From positions 1 to 64,000 of the forward strand of contig JAJHRF010000001.1 of the NCBI GenBank assembly GCA_020832925.1: a stretch of DNA of 64,000 bases, read 5' to 3'. Each line of letters begins with the position of its first letter. Within the stretch, counting starts at the first letter, position 1. Positions 39,280 to 46,300 of the stretch are shown in pieces. A program made the translations under genes and the position numbers. The notes beneath the pieces are model-generated. The model had not been told where the DNA came from. It saw only the letters and a list, made by a program, of their open reading frames with translations, and searched no databases. The stretch comes from Desulfurococcaceae archaeon (GTDB taxonomy: Archaea > Thermoproteota > Thermoprotei_A > Sulfolobales > Ignisphaeraceae).

Positions 39280-40959
39280 CTACTTCTCCTCTTCCTCTTT
39301 CTTCTCTTCTTTCTTTTTCTCCTCTTCTTTCCTCCTAGACGCTGCTATCACATCATCTATCCTTAGTATTAATGTTGCAGCCTCAGTACCTGCTTTTAGT
39401 GCCGATATCTTTACTAGCAATGGATCTATTATACCTTTTTCTTTTGCATTAATTAGATCTCCTGTGAAGACATCTAACCCTATCCACTTTCCATCAGGTT
39501 TCATGTGAGCAGCTCTAAGCTTCATCAGGACCTCGACAGAGTCTAGACCAGCATTTGTAGCTAAGGTCTCTACGATGCCTTCAAGAGCTCTTGCAAATGC
39601 TTCAACAGCTAACCCTTCTTTACCTCCAACTTTGTTAGCGTATTCTCTAAGGTGTTTAGCTAGCTCAATTTCGAAAGCTCCAGCTCCATATACGATCTTC
39701 GGTAATCTGAAGACATCTGCTACAGCGCTAAGAGCATCTCTTGTATATCTCTCTGCTTCATCAACAAGTCTTTCAAGACCTGCTCTAATCAATATAGCAA
39801 CAGATCTCGGATTCTTACATCTCTCTACAAATACCATCTTATCCTCTCCAACCTTCCTCTCTTCAACTAGACCACATTCTCCTAAGTCTTTCTCTGATAG
39901 ATCCTCTATATTACTTACTATCCTACCACCCGAAGCTCTCTCAAGTTTCTCCATATCGCTTCTCTTAACTCTTCTAACAGCCATTATACCTTTCTTAGCT
40001 AAGTAGTGCTGAGCAACATCATCAATACCTTTCTGACATATAACAACATTAACACCTACACTAGCAATCTTCTCAACGTAGCTTCTGAGGATATTCTCTT
40101 TCTCTTCAAGGAATCTACGCATTTGTGTTGGATCGCTAATCCTTATCTCTGCATCTATTTCAGGCTTTTCGATTTCTAGAGGTGCATCGATTAAAGCTAT
40201 CTTAGCATTCTCAACTCTTCTAGGCATTGCCGGGTGTACAACTTCTTTATCGAGTATTACACCATATACTAGCTGGGTATCAAGTAGTCCTCCTCCTTTC
40301 TTCTTGACTATCTGCACATTATCTAAATCGACATACCATCTATCTGCTCTCTTCTCAACAATTTGTCTTACTGCTTTAACAACTAACTCGGCTAAGAATT
40401 CTCTGGCACCGTGAACAGCTTTACTAGTTAAAGCCGACATAGCCACTTTCTTCAGGATTTCATCCGATGACGGAGCCTCAACATCGACCTCCTCCGCTAT
40501 CTCATACGCTACCTTAGTGGCGTACTCTAGAGCTTTTTTATACCCGTTCACAATTATTGTTGGGTGCAAACCTTTCTCTAGAAGATCTTCTGCTTGTTTA
40601 AGTAATTCACCAGCTATTATCACAGCAGTCTTTGTTCCATCACCTGCTTCCTCATCTTGACCCTTAGCTATCTGTACCAATAATTTCGCAGCTGGATGCT
40701 GAACATCCATCTTGTCAAGGATTGTTGCTCCATCATTGGTTATAGTTATGTCACCGAGTGCGTCAACTAACATCTTATCCATTCCTCTAGGACCGTAGGT
40801 TGTCTTTAACATTTCAGCGATAGCTAATGCTGCCATCATATTGGCTCTTAATGCATCACGTCCAGCAGCTCTAGACGTACCTTCCTTTAATATGATTACA
40901 GGTATTCCTGTAGCTTCATACGGTCCTACTTGAGCCATACTCAACACCAAGGAGTTCAT
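39280..40959 (-). CDS. ths: Thermosome subunit (group II chaperonin)
   Basis: A 559-residue chaperonin subunit. The nucleotide site reads [13 protein letters not shown] and [15 protein letters not shown]; later blocks are [16 protein letters not shown] and [16 protein letters not shown]-like [16 protein letters not shown]. The C-terminus is a long Lys/Glu run, as in thermosomes, instead of a GGM repeat. It forms an ATP-driven double ring that folds proteins. The first ORF residues MNSLVLS may not be used: M8 ([15 protein letters not shown]) is the usual start. Confidence 0.97.
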
Positions 40960-41149
40960 TTAGTGAGGTTCTATATAAGTTTTTATGAAAATAGTTACCG
41001 ATACCTCTAGTAATAGCTATCTTTATAAAGTCAAGGAATCGTAGTATGGTATTAAAGTAAAACCTTATAAACTGATACAGATATGTACATATATGTTGCA
41101 ATACCAAGAGCAAGGCTCGTGAGTAGAAGACGATGTGTAGGGAGAGTTT

Positions 41150-41371
41150 ATGGGTAAGGTTAGGACAAGTCTAGTTAAACGTACAGCGAGAAAACTTATC
41201 GTTATGTATCCTAATCTATTCACGATAGATTTTGAGCATAATAAACAGATTGTTTCAAAACTTTGCATTATCCATTCGAAGAAGTTAAGAAATCAGATAG
41301 CGGGTTATATAACTCACTTAGTTAAAATAATGCAGAGGCAAGCTTCAGAAGAAGGTAGTGAAATCGATTAG
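41150..41371 (+). CDS. rps17e: Small ribosomal subunit protein eS17
   Basis: A 73-residue archaeal S17e: GKVRTSLVKRTARKLI, FTIDFEHNKQIV, and SKKLRNQIAGYITHLVK are diagnostic. The length is normal for archaea (the eukaryotic protein has a longer tail). It starts at ATG 41150 after AGGGAGAG and heads a three-gene set: its end overlaps the MoaD-like gene by 14 bp, which in turn overlaps the Cgi121-like gene by 4 bp. Confidence 0.96.
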   Translation: MGKVRTSLVKRTARKLIVMYPNLFTIDFEHNKQIVSKLCIIHSKKLRNQIAGYITHLVKIMQRQASEEGSEID

Positions 41372-41666
41372 GTGGGTACCCATAGTTAAAGTAAGGTTTT
41401 TGGGTCATCTCAGAACGAGATTAAATATCGATGAACTAAACATACCAGTAGAGGGTGAGATATCATTAACTGATTTGCTTACTAAGATCTCTAACTTGAA
41501 ACCTGAACTACAACAAATTATCAAGAGTATCGTAGAGTATACAAGCGAGTATCTTCTTTTAATTAACGATGTCGATATTAATGTTTACGGCGATTTAAAT
41601 AAAGTAAAAATAAGGGATGGAGATACCGTAGTCTTTGTGCCAGTAGTACATGGAGGAAAAGAATGA
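41358..41666 (+). CDS. MoaD-like ubiquitin-like protein with Gly-Gly-Lys-Glu end
   Basis: A 102-residue beta-grasp protein: VKVRFLGHLRTRL as first strand, LLLINDVDINVY and DTVVFVPVVHGG at the end. The Gly-Gly is followed by Lys-Glu, so activation at a terminal glycine would first need removal of two residues, unlike classical MoaD or SAMP. It is distinct from the second MoaD-like protein at 20.6 kb. Start GTG 41358 lies inside the eS17 gene; only the first 8 residues are uncertain. Its placement with translation genes suggests tRNA thiolation or protein modification rather than cofactor synthesis (inference). Confidence 0.75.
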   Translation: MKSIRWVPIVKVRFLGHLRTRLNIDELNIPVEGEISLTDLLTKISNLKPELQQIIKSIVEYTSEYLLLINDVDINVYGDLNKVKIRDGDTVVFVPVVHGGKE

Positions 41667-42178
41667 TATTTATAGGATATATACATTGCAATAAAACAGT
41701 AAATCCCTGTGAATATCTAAAACATTTCTGTAACTGCATTAAACTTTGCCTTTACATCGAAGAGCTTCCTGCTTTATGGGAGGAACTCTCATTAGCATTT
41801 ATTAAAACTCTTAAAGCTGTAGAGGATAGAAAGACCGTAGCGCGAAAAATAGAGTTTGAGTTCTATATAAGGTTTTTTGCTGAGAGACAAATTCACTATA
41901 TAATCAATAAGTATTTAGCAACTAAGAAAACAAATTCAAAGACTAGTTTCATAATAACGAAGTGCGATAAAGATGAGCAGTGCGTGAGCGAATACCTAAA
42001 GAATCTTTTAAACTTAGGCTGTAAATACATAGAGAAACCCGGTATTGATGAAGCATTGAATCTATATTCGATAATATTAAAACATCATGATCTCGATGTA
42101 GATATCCATAGTATTGAGGAAATACGTAGAATAGCCTTAGGTATTATAGGATGCAACGATATCTTAATCAAAAAATAG
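41663..42178 (+). CDS. Cgi121-like protein (putative KEOPS subunit)
   Basis: A 171-residue protein. The segment ARKIEFEFYIRFFAERQIHYI resembles the Cgi121 family helix that ends in RQI, where family members read E.L.YL...RQI. A second similar feature is the C-terminal helix region EIRRIALGIIGCNDILI. Cgi121 binds the Bud32 kinase and tRNA in the KEOPS complex that makes t6A. The N-terminal 35 residues are Cys-rich (CEYLKHFCNCIKLC). Overlap by 4 bp with the MoaD-like gene indicates one operon. The assignment is plausible but not certain. Confidence 0.5.
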   Translation: MIFIGYIHCNKTVNPCEYLKHFCNCIKLCLYIEELPALWEELSLAFIKTLKAVEDRKTVARKIEFEFYIRFFAERQIHYIINKYLATKKTNSKTSFIITKCDKDEQCVSEYLKNLLNLGCKYIEKPGIDEALNLYSIILKHHDLDVDIHSIEEIRRIALGIIGCNDILIKK

Positions 42179-42228
42179 ATATAAAGTTTATCGTAAGTAA
42201 GACGATTAGGTCTTAAACTATGTTTTAG

Positions 42229-42240
42229 AAATATTTTTAA
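42229..42240 (+). promoter_or_regulatory. TATA box of the Glu/Trp microprotein gene
   Basis: AAATATTTTTAA lies 38-49 bp before the start codon, which puts transcription start near 42258-42262 and leaves a short leader with the ribosome binding site. Confidence 0.6.
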
Positions 42241-42277
42241 TCCCCGGTCACTACAAGCTAATGATTGGTGAATCTAT

Positions 42278-42352
42278 ATGATGCTTGAAGAAGAATGGGA
42301 AGAAGAGGAATGGTGGGAAGAAGAGGAAGAATGGGAAGAAGAGGAATGGTAG
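42278..42352 (+). CDS. 24-residue microprotein of Glu and Trp only (plus Met-Met-Leu)
   Basis: The frame begins ATG ATG CTT, then consists only of GAA/GAG (16 codons) and TGG (5 codons) and ends with TAG at 42350-42352. The repeating unit is Glu-Glu-Glu-Glu-Trp with small variations. A GGTGA ribosome binding site (42267-42271) is 6 nt before the first ATG, and a TATA box is placed correctly upstream. An inverted repeat lies 18 bp after the stop. The protein would be extremely acidic and aromatic; I know no family. ABCE1 starts 111 bp downstream. A Trp-rich leader peptide or a purine-rich RNA element are alternatives. Confidence 0.6.
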   Translation: MMLEEEWEEEEWWEEEEEWEEEEW

Positions 42353-42369
42353 AGCAAGTACAATACACT

Positions 42370-42391
42370 TCGTATATTTTAAACTATACGA
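42370..42391 (+). repeat. Inverted repeat between the microprotein and ABCE1 genes
   Basis: TCGTATA and TATACGA form a perfect 7-bp inverted repeat with loop TTTTAAAC. It could be a terminator-like hairpin for the microprotein message or an operator in front of the ABCE1 promoter (AAAATATTTATTTG at about 42396-42409). Confidence 0.45.
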
Positions 42392-42463
42392 GTTAAAATA
42401 TTTATTTGCTTCAGGATTTGAATCGGTTATAGATTTAATAAAGCTTTTTTAAGGTAATAAGTG

Positions 42464-44269
42464 ATGGCTAGAGTTGCAATTATTGATTACGAAGTTTGTA
42501 ATCCTAGTAAATGCGGTACACCGTGCATTAGATTTTGCCCTGTAAATAAGACCAAGCCTTACAAGGCGATAGAGTTAAGTGAGCAGAAAAAAGGTAAACC
42601 TGTTATCTACGAAGATAAATGTATAGCTTGTGGGATATGTGTTAAGAAGTGCCCGTTTAAAGCTATAAGCATAGTAAATCTCCCGGAAGAAGTAGAGGAA
42701 AAGCTTGTACATAGATATGGACCTAACGCGTTTAAACTATACGGATTACCCATACCCATTAGAGGGAAGTTTGTAGCAGTTATCGGACCTAATGGTGTGG
42801 GGAAGACAACAGCTTTAAGAATACTATCAGGGAATTTGATACCTAATTTCGGTAAGTATGATGCTGAACCTCAGAAGGACTATGTTTTAAACCGTTTTAA
42901 GGGAACACAGCTGTATACATACTTCTACGATCTGTATTACAACAAATTAAAGGTTGTACTTAAGATCCAGTACATAGAGTATATCCCTAAGTATGTTAAA
43001 GGTGTTCCGAGAAGTATTTTAATGAAGGTTGATGAAAGAGGTATTATGCGTGATATCGTGACATTGTTGAATATGGAGTACATGCTGGACAAGGATATTT
43101 CAATTTTAAGCGGAGGAGAGTTGCAGAAGCTAGCTGTCGCTGTAGCTTTGGCAAAGGATAGTGATGTGTACATATTCGATGAACCAACAAGCTATCTAGA
43201 TGTTAGAGAAAGGCTCAACCTTGCGAAAGCTCTAGATGAACTAGTGCCTAGGGATAGGTATGTACTTGTTGTAGATCACGATCTCATGTTCATAGATTAC
43301 GTTGCAGATCTTGTTGTTGTAACTTACGGAGTTCCGGGGGTTTATGGTATGTTTTCTAATCCTTATACAGCAAATACAGGGATAGATCATTATCTCAAAG
43401 GCTATCTACCGTCGGAAAACGTAAGAATTAGAGATGAAAGTATTACATTTAGACTGCACGATAGTAGAGTCGATCTGGGGTCCGAGATAGAAGAAGTTCT
43501 CTGTATATGGAGTAATATAAAGAAAAAGCTAGGCGTATTTGAATTAACAGTAGAAGCTGGAGAAGTACGCAAAGGTGAGGTGATAGGGATTGTAGGCCCT
43601 AACAGCATAGGTAAAACCACGTTTATCAGAATTCTTGCAGGAGAAATCCAACCTGATGAGGGTTATACTACAACATCGGCGTTTAGATTAAGTTATAAAC
43701 CGCAGTACTTACCTAGGCAGATGCAGGGTTGCACAACAGTCGAAGAATGTATAAAAGGTTTAAATAGAGAAGCTTTGAACGAAAATAGCTGGCTGTATGT
43801 AGAAATAGTTAAACGATTAGGGATAGATAGGTTGTTGAACAAGGAAGTTGCCACATTAAGTGGGGGAGAGCTGCAGAAGTTCCATGTAGCTTACGCTTTA
43901 ATCAAAGATGCAGATATATACTTATTAGATGAACCTTCTTCACATATAGATGTAGAAGATCAACTAGTTGTAGCTAGAACTATTAAACGTGTAGCAAGGA
44001 TTAGAAAAGCCTCGGTATTTGTCGTAGATCATAACGTTCTACTCATCGACTATGCTGTTGACAGATTAATAGTATTCACAGGTGAGCCAGGTTTTAGAGG
44101 ATACGGTTTCGCACCTAATACCGTAGCTAAAGCATTTAATAACTTCCTGAAGCAGCTTAGCATAACTATGCGACGAGATCCGCAATCAGGAAGACCTAGA
44201 ATAAATAAACCTGGTAGCTACTTAGATAGATACCAGAGATCGTTAGGTCAGTATTCCTACTCGGAATAG
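42464..44269 (+). CDS. Ribosome recycling ATPase ABCE1/Rli1
   Basis: About 601 residues. The N-terminal region has two [4Fe-4S] clusters (NPSKCGTPCIRFCPVNKTKP and CIACGICVKKCPF). Two ABC modules follow, with Walker A GPNGVGKTT and GPNSIGKTT, signatures LSGGELQK (twice) and Walker B IFDEPTSYLD and LLDEPSSHID. The factor splits ribosomes after termination together with Pelota. All ATPase residues are present. The track frame includes a GTG codon at 42461; ATG 42464 is the likely start, following AAGGTAA. Confidence 0.97.
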   Translation: MARVAIIDYEVCNPSKCGTPCIRFCPVNKTKPYKAIELSEQKKGKPVIYEDKCIACGICVKKCPFKAISIVNLPEEVEEKLVHRYGPNAFKLYGLPIPIRGKFVAVIGPNGVGKTTALRILSGNLIPNFGKYDAEPQKDYVLNRFKGTQLYTYFYDLYYNKLKVVLKIQYIEYIPKYVKGVPRSILMKVDERGIMRDIVTLLNMEYMLDKDISILSGGELQKLAVAVALAKDSDVYIFDEPTSYLDVRERLNLAKALDELVPRDRYVLVVDHDLMFIDYVADLVVVTYGVPGVYGMFSNPYTANTGIDHYLKGYLPSENVRIRDESITFRLHDSRVDLGSEIEEVLCIWSNIKKKLGVFELTVEAGEVRKGEVIGIVGPNSIGKTTFIRILAGEIQPDEGYTTTSAFRLSYKPQYLPRQMQGCTTVEECIKGLNREALNENSWLYVEIVKRLGIDRLLNKEVATLSGGELQKFHVAYALIKDADIYLLDEPSSHIDVEDQLVVARTIKRVARIRKASVFVVDHNVLLIDYAVDRLIVFTGEPGFRGYGFAPNTVAKAFNNFLKQLSITMRRDPQSGRPRINKPGSYLDRYQRSLGQYSYSE

Positions 44270-44364
44270 ATCTACAAATTTTCAAGAGCTCGATAAAGTT
44301 ATACTCGGTATACCCGCAAAACTTATTTTCTTAAAAATAGCTTTTCCTTAGCCTGGTGAAATTT

Positions 44365-45519
44365 GTGAGTGAAAAACCGAAGACAACGATATCCGTAATC
44401 AAAGCAGATATAGGGTCTCTTGCAGGACATCACGTAGTACATCCTGATACTATGGCTGCTGCAGCTAAAGTTCTTGCTGAAGCTAAAAGCAAAGGTATCA
44501 TAGTAGATTACTATGTAACTCACGCAGGTGATGATTTAGAGCTTATAATGACTCATAAAAAAGGTGTTGATTCACCTGAAGTACATGAAACAGCGTGGAA
44601 TGCATTCAAAGAAGCAGCAAAAGTTGCAAAGGAGCTTGGACTTTATGCAGCAGGTCAAGATCTGTTAGCCGAGGCTTTCTCTGGGAATGTAAGAGGTTTA
44701 GGTCCATCTGTAGCAGAAATGGAGTTTGTAGAAAGACCTTCAGAACCTATCGTGGTATTCATGGCTGATAAAACTGAGCCTGGAGCTTTCAACCTACCTC
44801 TATTTAGAGTATTTGCAGATCCATTCAATACAGCCGGTCTTGTAATAGATCCTAAACTTCACGATGGATTCAAATTTGAGATCTACGATGTAATGGCAGG
44901 TAAATACGTTGTCATGAATGCTCCGGAAGAGCTATATGACATCCTTGCACTTATAGGTACTCCTGGAAGATTTGTAATAAGAAGAGTGTATAGGAAAAGC
45001 GATAACGAGATAGCAGCAGTTGTCTCAGTTGAAAGATTAAACCTCATTGCTGGACGTTACGTTGGGAAAGACGATCCTGTAGCAGTTGTTAGAGCACAAT
45101 CAGGTTTTCCAGCCGTTGGTGAAATACTAGAAGCATTTGCATTTCCACACCTAGTAGCTGGATGGATGAGAGGAAGTCACTTTGGACCACTAATGCCTGT
45201 ATCACAACGCCATGCTAGGTGTACAAGATTCGATGGACCACCGAGAGTTGTAGCTCTCGGTTTCCAAATAAAGAACGCTAGACTGATAGGGCCTTCTGAT
45301 CTATTCGATGATCCAGCTTTCGATGAAACAAGAAGACTAGCGCAAATGATAGCTGAGTACATGAGAAGACATGGGCCATTTATGCCACACAGATTAGGAC
45401 CAGAAGAAATGGAGTACACAACATTGCCAGAAGTACTACAGAAGCTACAAAATAGATTTGTAGAAGCCAAACTCTACGAAGTAAAAGGGCCTAAAGTCAA
45501 AACAGAATTACTAGAGTAG
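44365..45519 (+). CDS. fbp: Fructose-1,6-bisphosphate aldolase/phosphatase
   Basis: A bifunctional archaeal enzyme that joins triose phosphates and then removes the 1-phosphate, making gluconeogenesis one-way. The N-terminus ISVIKADIGSLAGHHVVHPD, the metal-binding ADKTEPGAFNLPLFR and the C-terminal EYTTLPEVLQKL are typical. I place the start at GTG 44365 because GGTGA (44355-44359) lies just before it; GTG 44356 would overlap that site. The length, about 384 residues, is normal. Triosephosphate isomerase follows 88 bp downstream, so the two gluconeogenic genes are neighbours. Confidence 0.95.
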   Translation: MSEKPKTTISVIKADIGSLAGHHVVHPDTMAAAAKVLAEAKSKGIIVDYYVTHAGDDLELIMTHKKGVDSPEVHETAWNAFKEAAKVAKELGLYAAGQDLLAEAFSGNVRGLGPSVAEMEFVERPSEPIVVFMADKTEPGAFNLPLFRVFADPFNTAGLVIDPKLHDGFKFEIYDVMAGKYVVMNAPEELYDILALIGTPGRFVIRRVYRKSDNEIAAVVSVERLNLIAGRYVGKDDPVAVVRAQSGFPAVGEILEAFAFPHLVAGWMRGSHFGPLMPVSQRHARCTRFDGPPRVVALGFQIKNARLIGPSDLFDDPAFDETRRLAQMIAEYMRRHGPFMPHRLGPEEMEYTTLPEVLQKLQNRFVEAKLYEVKGPKVKTELLE

Positions 45520-45607
45520 ATAATAAGAATTAATAAAGTCAAAGCTATTTTTTAACTAGTGTCTGCGTAAAAGTATAACTTAAGTTTTGTTAATTGTGTG
45601 ATATCGT

Positions 45608-46300
45608 ATGAAGGTGCCTGTCTTAGCCATAAACTATAAGGTGTACAATACAGCATTTGGCGAAAAAGCATTGGAGATAGCTAAATACGCAGAAAAAGCT
45701 GCTAAAGAGTATGGCATCGAAGTTATAGTAATACCTCCTGCAACAGAGCTTAGGAAACTTCTTGAATCGGTATCGATACCTATATTTGCTCAACATGCAG
45801 ATCCTTATGATTACGGAGCATACACAGGGTGGCTACCGATAGCAGCGTTGAAGGACATAGGTGTAAAGGGTGTTCTTGTAAATCATAGCGAACACAGATT
45901 GAGATTAGATGAGATAGTTGTTATTGTTGAAAACGCTAAAAAGTATAACCTTGAAACACTAGTCTGTGCAGACACTCCAACAGCCGCCTCAGCTGTAGCT
46001 GCAATAAATCCTACAGCTCTAGCTGTCGAACCACCTGAACTAATTGGGACAGGGATCGCAGTATCCAGAGCGAAACCTGAGGTTATAACGAATACTGTAC
46101 ATAAAGTTAGAGCTGTAAACAAGGAAGTAATAATACTCACAGGTGCTGGTATTTCGACAGCTGAAGACGTTGAAGCAGCGATAAAGTTAGGAACAGTAGG
46201 GGTTCTAGTAGCATCTGCTATTATGAAAGCGAAAGATCCAGAGAAAGTTATTAAAGAAATGGCGGAAGCAGCTTACAGAACCTATTTCGGTCGTAAATAA
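45608..46300 (+). CDS. tpiA: Triosephosphate isomerase
   Basis: The 230-residue short archaeal form, usually tetrameric. NYKVYNTAFG holds the catalytic Lys (residue 11 in INYK), LVNHSEHR the catalytic His, and AVEPPELIGTG the catalytic Glu. The phosphate loop is LTGAGIST. It interconverts dihydroxyacetone phosphate and glyceraldehyde 3-phosphate. It is on the same strand as FBP aldolase/phosphatase. There is no membrane or export signal. Confidence 0.96.
   Translation: MKVPVLAINYKVYNTAFGEKALEIAKYAEKAAKEYGIEVIVIPPATELRKLLESVSIPIFAQHADPYDYGAYTGWLPIAALKDIGVKGVLVNHSEHRLRLDEIVVIVENAKKYNLETLVCADTPTAASAVAAINPTALAVEPPELIGTGIAVSRAKPEVITNTVHKVRAVNKEVIILTGAGISTAEDVEAAIKLGTVGVLVASAIMKAKDPEKVIKEMAEAAYRTYFGRK

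Follow-up and report, generated by a model that had tools for sequence, protein, structure and literature searches.

Sequence and expression signals of a Glu-Trp microprotein gene

In the window analysed here (the whole stretch of 64,000 nucleotides of archaeal DNA), a frame of 24 codons that encodes little other than Glu and Trp lies just upstream of the gene for the ribosome recycling ATPase ABCE1. This raises the question of whether such a frame is a gene and, if so, what its product, referred to below as EW, acts upon. The features of the locus are as follows.

41150..41371, + strand: ribosomal protein eS17 (PF00833)
41358..41666, + strand: Urm1/ThiS-like protein (PF09138, PF02597)
41663..42178, + strand: Cgi121-like (KEOPS) gene, assigned from its position and similarity to relatives; this copy has no Pfam match
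42225..42241, + strand: putative BRE/TATA promoter of EW, TTAGAAATATTTTTAAT; AGAAATGCTTTTAT in relatives (11 genomes of the genus compared upstream)
42267..42271, + strand: Shine-Dalgarno GGTGA, 6 nt before the first ATG of EW; GAGGTG type in relatives
42278..42352, + strand: EW microprotein gene, 24 codons plus TAG, second ATG at 42281; assigned from purifying selection and homologues
42445..42450, + strand: T6 tract in the EW-ABCE1 spacer, a possible EW terminator or ABCE1 promoter-proximal element
42461..44269, + strand: ABCE1 (RLI), ribosome recycling ATPase and proposed EW partner, with GTG 42461 or ATG 42464 as start; Fer4_RLI (PF04068) over cut-off

The product, MMLEEEWEEEEWWEEEEEWEEEEW, consists of 16 Glu, 5 Trp, 2 Met and 1 Leu, and there are two in-frame ATGs at the 5' end of the frame; the translation thus agrees with what the first-pass annotation of this locus had read. 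Of the window's 720 open reading frames with at least 18 residues, EW has the highest Glu plus Trp content, 87.5%, against 26% for the next one; 30 simulated sequences of 64 kb reached 33% at most. EW is therefore an extreme composition outlier of the window.

The TATA box and the GGTGA site proposed earlier are both backed by the relatives: the AT-rich box at about 42232-42241, some 45 nt upstream of EW, is part of a BRE/TATA-like box (AGAAATGCTTTTAT type) which, together with a GAGGTG Shine-Dalgarno, is common to the genus (11 genomes). The distance from the EW stop to ABCE1 is 111 nt for the ATG, as previously given, or 108 nt for the GTG. This spacer (window 42353-42460) holds a T-rich tract that is a candidate for a terminator, an ABCE1 promoter element or both; the spacers across the genus also carry T-runs. 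For T5 runs within 120 nt past the EW stop, the value was 0.58 (versus 0.27 in shuffles) where ABCE1 is next and 0.75 (versus 0.29) where it is not, an enrichment that is consistent with an archaeal U-tract terminator. Judged by its predicted promoter, Shine-Dalgarno and T-tract, EW reads as an independently expressed gene.

Within the chain, the Trp residues are spaced more evenly than by chance (CV 0.40 versus 0.67 shuffled), with a periodicity near 75 degrees, or about 4.8 residues. The repeated Glu4-Trp units described at first are too regular a picture, since the spacings vary, mostly between 4 and 6, and WW doublets occur. Alpha-helical amphipathicity of the Trp residues was considered and dropped, since the signal at 100 degrees per residue did not reach significance (z 1.3). 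With Glu making up about 70% of its residues, EW is probably disordered at neutral pH. In layout it follows the sticker-and-spacer scheme of acidic-aromatic ligands.

Homologues across Thermoproteota

Homologues were sought with a degenerate DNA pattern for EEWEEEEW, with the reversed pattern as control. Within the order, the pattern matched 60 of 214 genomes, among them 10 of the 11 of the same genus, and the control none. Loss of the frame in close relatives that keep ABCE1 had been put forward as grounds for rejecting the gene, and the outcome favours the gene. With a looser pattern, matches were obtained in 135 of 229 genomes when the class was searched and in 149 of 398 when the sample was spread across the phylum; nearly all of those inspected were tiny frames of EW style. 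Diverged members were added with a shorter pattern, from Sulfolobaceae, Bathyarchaeia-like genomes and others. In total, counterparts were collected from 181 genomes in about 44 family-level groups of Thermoproteota; as the patterns miss diverged members, all of these presence counts are lower bounds. Named carriers are, for instance, Candidatus Aramenus sulfurataquae (L153), a Thermogladius MAG (L155) and Bathyarchaeota (L157, L160, L169). The 181 pooled sequences are 69% Glu, 15% Trp, 3% Phe and less than 3% Asp, with a median length of 30 residues and a median charge of -21, and the residue just before the stop is Trp in 143 and Phe in 17 of them.

EW is kept across most of the phylum Thermoproteota. 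One large group (f18), probably Nitrososphaeria, gave 0 matches to the looser pattern in the phylum-wide search, and in seven more of its genomes shorter-pattern matches, if any, lie in other frames. Whole-genome searches of 7 Nitrososphaeria and of 35 archaea from other phyla likewise gave no pattern match, and in the remaining archaea of the named set, the stretches fetched around ABCE1 (flanks of 3 kb at most) contain no EW-type open reading frame.

Selection on the encoded peptide

Among 17 aligned Glu columns in the 11 genomes of the window's genus, codon position 3 varies in 16 and positions 1 and 2 vary in none. Free third positions combined with fixed first two positions show purifying selection on the protein. 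The dN/dS-type check suggested in the first-pass annotation points the same way, with a pN/pS of 0.021 in the genus and 0 to 0.25 in ten other groups; these ratios are rough, since the repeat alignment is imperfect and synonymous counts are saturated, and the column counts are the cleaner evidence. Glu runs change in length by whole codons within the genus and the Trp pattern is kept. On the codon pattern, we regard EW as established as a translated, selected peptide, and that this microprotein is real, under selection and active in trans is highly probable at the least.

Gene neighbourhood

The recurrent gene order is eS17, Urm1, phosphoribosyltransferase, Cgi121, EW, RPB9-type zinc ribbon, ABCE1, FBPase and TIM, with one member or another missing by group. 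At window positions 39280-46300, this recurrent cluster is given as thermosome, eS17, Urm1, (phosphoribosyltransferase), Cgi121-like, EW, (RPB9-type zinc ribbon), ABCE1, FBPase, TIM. The gene found most often beside EW is ABCE1: in 24 groups it is located downstream and on the same strand, with a spacing of 38-130 nt in many of them, and in 77 of the 181 genomes its start follows EW on that strand within 600 nt, a count in which many of the remaining loci are too short to show ABCE1. In a further 17 genomes, EW is upstream of ABCE1 in opposite orientation, at up to 2.5 kb. In Sulfolobaceae, EW and ABCE1 are found together, with eS17 and Urm1 downstream of FBPase, and no Cgi121 was detected near EW.

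Other arrangements also occur. In one group (f8), EW stays with Cgi121 and ABCE1 has moved, and in another (f9), the homologues are on the strand opposite ABCE1. EW is far from ABCE1, with unchanged composition, in f3, f4, f5, f24, f26, f38 and f40, and in at least nine groups (these seven, f34 and f53) neither ABCE1 nor Cgi121 is near it in the stretches read. The unlinked copies have no common neighbour gene; NfeD, radical SAM, methyltransferase, Ogg and others were seen.

Comparison with known systems

Repeated Trp in an acidic flexible segment is also a trait of eIF3j/Hcr1, whose N-terminus reportedly contacts ABCE1. The acidic-Trp repeats of the yeast N-terminus were confirmed in PDB 6zce (MSWDDEA..SWDAEI..SWDAEEEE), eIF3j assists ABCE1 in recycling (PMC7196836), and in human eIF3j, mutation of Trp52 or the flanking Asp leaves no detectable binding to the eIF3b RRM pocket (PMC2824034). 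However, the eIF3j repeats are Asp-rich (SWDAE) and accompanied by a further domain, whereas EW is free-standing and Glu-rich: no conserved domain follows the acidic part, as the frame stops after 24 residues (family median 30). We treat the likeness as an analogy and claim no homology. The C-terminal tail of the archaeal stalk protein aP1, likewise acidic with spaced hydrophobics, is reported to bind ABCE1 and translational GTPases (PMC6791870 and PMC11624264, citing Imai 2018). Such tails end in an LFG/MFG hydrophobic motif and are carried on the P1 dimerisation domain (PMC6791870), whereas EW ends in Trp and is a separate protein, the family having no terminal LFG/MFG motif on a P1 domain.

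The amino-group carriers LysW/ArgW resemble EW as small acidic archaeal proteins with an acidic-Trp C-terminal motif, which is EDWGE in LysW. They differ in having a zinc domain and a terminal substrate-carrying Glu; EW has neither, with no Cys and Trp as the last residue in 143 of 181. GON7, a KEOPS subunit, is small, acidic and disordered, and EW neighbours the KEOPS gene Cgi121; yet EW is far shorter and Trp-rich, and the comparison gives no sequence relation. Bacterial Trp leaders and acidic uORFs such as MgtL are, like EW, short frames upstream of a gene with Trp codons or acidic residues, but in EW it is the protein that selection keeps, no hairpin is conserved, and there is no fixed downstream gene. 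An attenuator always lies in cis upstream of the gene it regulates, whereas EW has opposite-strand and unlinked homologues, and the genes downstream of EW are ABCE1, FBPase and TIM, not Trp-biosynthesis genes.

Five diverse EW members gave 0 matches in Pfam and NCBIfam, and two EW sequences 0 matches in PDB, both at E up to 10, negatives that are weak owing to the composition filters of HMMER. Signature strings retrieved no relevant paper in the open-licence literature. The features tested place EW outside the eIF3j, aP1, LysW and leader-peptide families; by analogy, it may work like eIF3j or the aP1 tail.

Proposed role and alternatives

Given that the acidic-Trp eIF3j and the aP1 tail both meet ABCE1, EW is proposed as a ligand of ABCE1 or of ABCE1 on the 30S subunit. 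The reading that we tentatively prefer is a trans-acting, probably disordered acidic-aromatic ligand whose most likely partner is ABCE1 or the complex of ABCE1 with the small subunit. We infer its disorder, binding mode, partner and effect as follows. The Glu runs would keep the chain soluble and extended and would expose regularly spaced Trp residues plus the C-terminal one, which would insert into hydrophobic pockets with basic rims. In this way EW would adjust the residence of ABCE1, or its ATPase cycle, as ribosomes are split and initiate anew, an effect like that supposed for the acidic-Trp N-terminus of eIF3j in eukaryotes. A more specific version, which we hold possible but doubtful, is that EW is a dedicated ABCE1 accessory factor in Thermoproteota and an independent archaeal counterpart of the eIF3j acidic-Trp N-terminus, linking ribosome splitting to re-initiation.

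The recurrent ABCE1 link, and the pair being kept in Sulfolobaceae after loss of the other upstream neighbours, support ABCE1 as partner. Of the two roles offered in the first-pass annotation, that of an acidic, Trp-spaced peptide binding the translation machinery, for instance ABCE1, stands as the best reading, with a link that recurs phylum-wide, and that of a Trp-codon leader is not supported. Against ABCE1 as partner are the group in which EW stays with Cgi121 (f8) and the at least nine groups in which it is near neither gene. Moreover, a gene order common to EW and ABCE1 can be inherited without functional contact, and lineages without EW recycle ribosomes with ABCE1.

Irrespective of the partner, selection has maintained a protein of almost only two kinds of amino acid in most of an archaeal phylum, and no family model or paper for it was found in the searches made. 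EW is too short for the usual gene callers, is masked as low complexity in BLAST and, being almost without Lys and Arg, is hard to see in standard tryptic proteomics. If it does bind ABCE1, it would be a new archaeal ribosome-recycling accessory factor and a minimal natural model of partner recognition by acidic-aromatic disordered peptides. Since it is carried by Sulfolobaceae, including genetically tractable species, the proposal is directly testable.

A different target in trans is rather unlikely. EW would then act as a chaperone or decoy for some other factor of translation, a basic protein of the ribosome or of chromatin, or a surface that binds nucleic acids, and its adjacency to ABCE1 would be inherited order. 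The unlinked copies of the nine groups listed above and the several translation genes in the neighbourhood fit such a target, whereas the position of ABCE1 as commonest neighbour, and the survival of the pair in Sulfolobaceae without the other upstream genes, speak for ABCE1.

We find it quite improbable that EW, which follows Cgi121, is a KEOPS-linked acidic subunit with a Gon7-like role. The two genes adjoin in about 14 groups, and EW remains by Cgi121 in f8, from which ABCE1 has moved away; but linkage to ABCE1 extends to more groups (24) and persists in Sulfolobaceae with no detectable Cgi121 nearby, and in f17 the gap between Cgi121 and EW is about 1.8 kb with ABCE1 still close.

A cis-acting uORF, in which the acidic run would destabilise the ribosome, so that its translation senses splitting capacity and sets ABCE1 expression, is very improbable, as is its variant, the Trp-codon leader. 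It would suit the close spacing (38-130 nt) upstream of ABCE1 in many groups, and acidic nascent chains are reportedly able to destabilise bacterial ribosomes. However, composition is kept in the opposite-strand copies of f9 and in unlinked ones, which is a strong argument against a purely cis role, and the unlinked copies too have a T-tract after the stop. The hairpin after the stop, seen at first as a leader element, is not conserved, the predicted folds differing across the 11 genomes of the genus, and Glu is kept as strictly as Trp, which counts against a leader built on Trp codons.

Finally, the chance of a low-complexity repeat with no gene is negligible: the DNA is repetitive and Glu-run lengths differ between species, but the codon pattern already contradicts this reading, with variation only at the third position, the frame, stop, Shine-Dalgarno and promoter kept, a phylum-wide range, and pattern matches in viral contigs that are never an EW-type gene.

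Variant forms and viral contigs

A viral origin of EW was also considered and set aside: none of 53 viral-contig stretches was an EW-type gene, the pattern matches there being chance ones in ordinary frames of great length or, in a few cases, in short fragments. Viral contigs L350, L349, L355 and L366 encode proteins of more than 1000 residues with internal acidic-Trp repeats, in a context unrelated to archaeal EW.

The Sulfolobaceae genome G196 has two EW genes, one (L422) just upstream of ABCE1 and one (L436) elsewhere, and by the stricter pattern its relatives G197-G202 have the unlinked type only. In G280, the gene just upstream of ABCE1 (L450) encodes about 16 residues with one Trp, and has a GTG start and a strong Shine-Dalgarno. 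Two longer proteins carry EW-type tails: in L141 (G517), the tail CLGWEEEAEEEWEEEEWEEEWEEEENWGDEDWEEEEPN is fused to a possible treble-clef or B-box-like zinc finger, with Pfam matches below cut-off, and in L275 (G282, group f36), a long tail accompanies a weak LysW-like zinc domain (NF041070, below cut-off).
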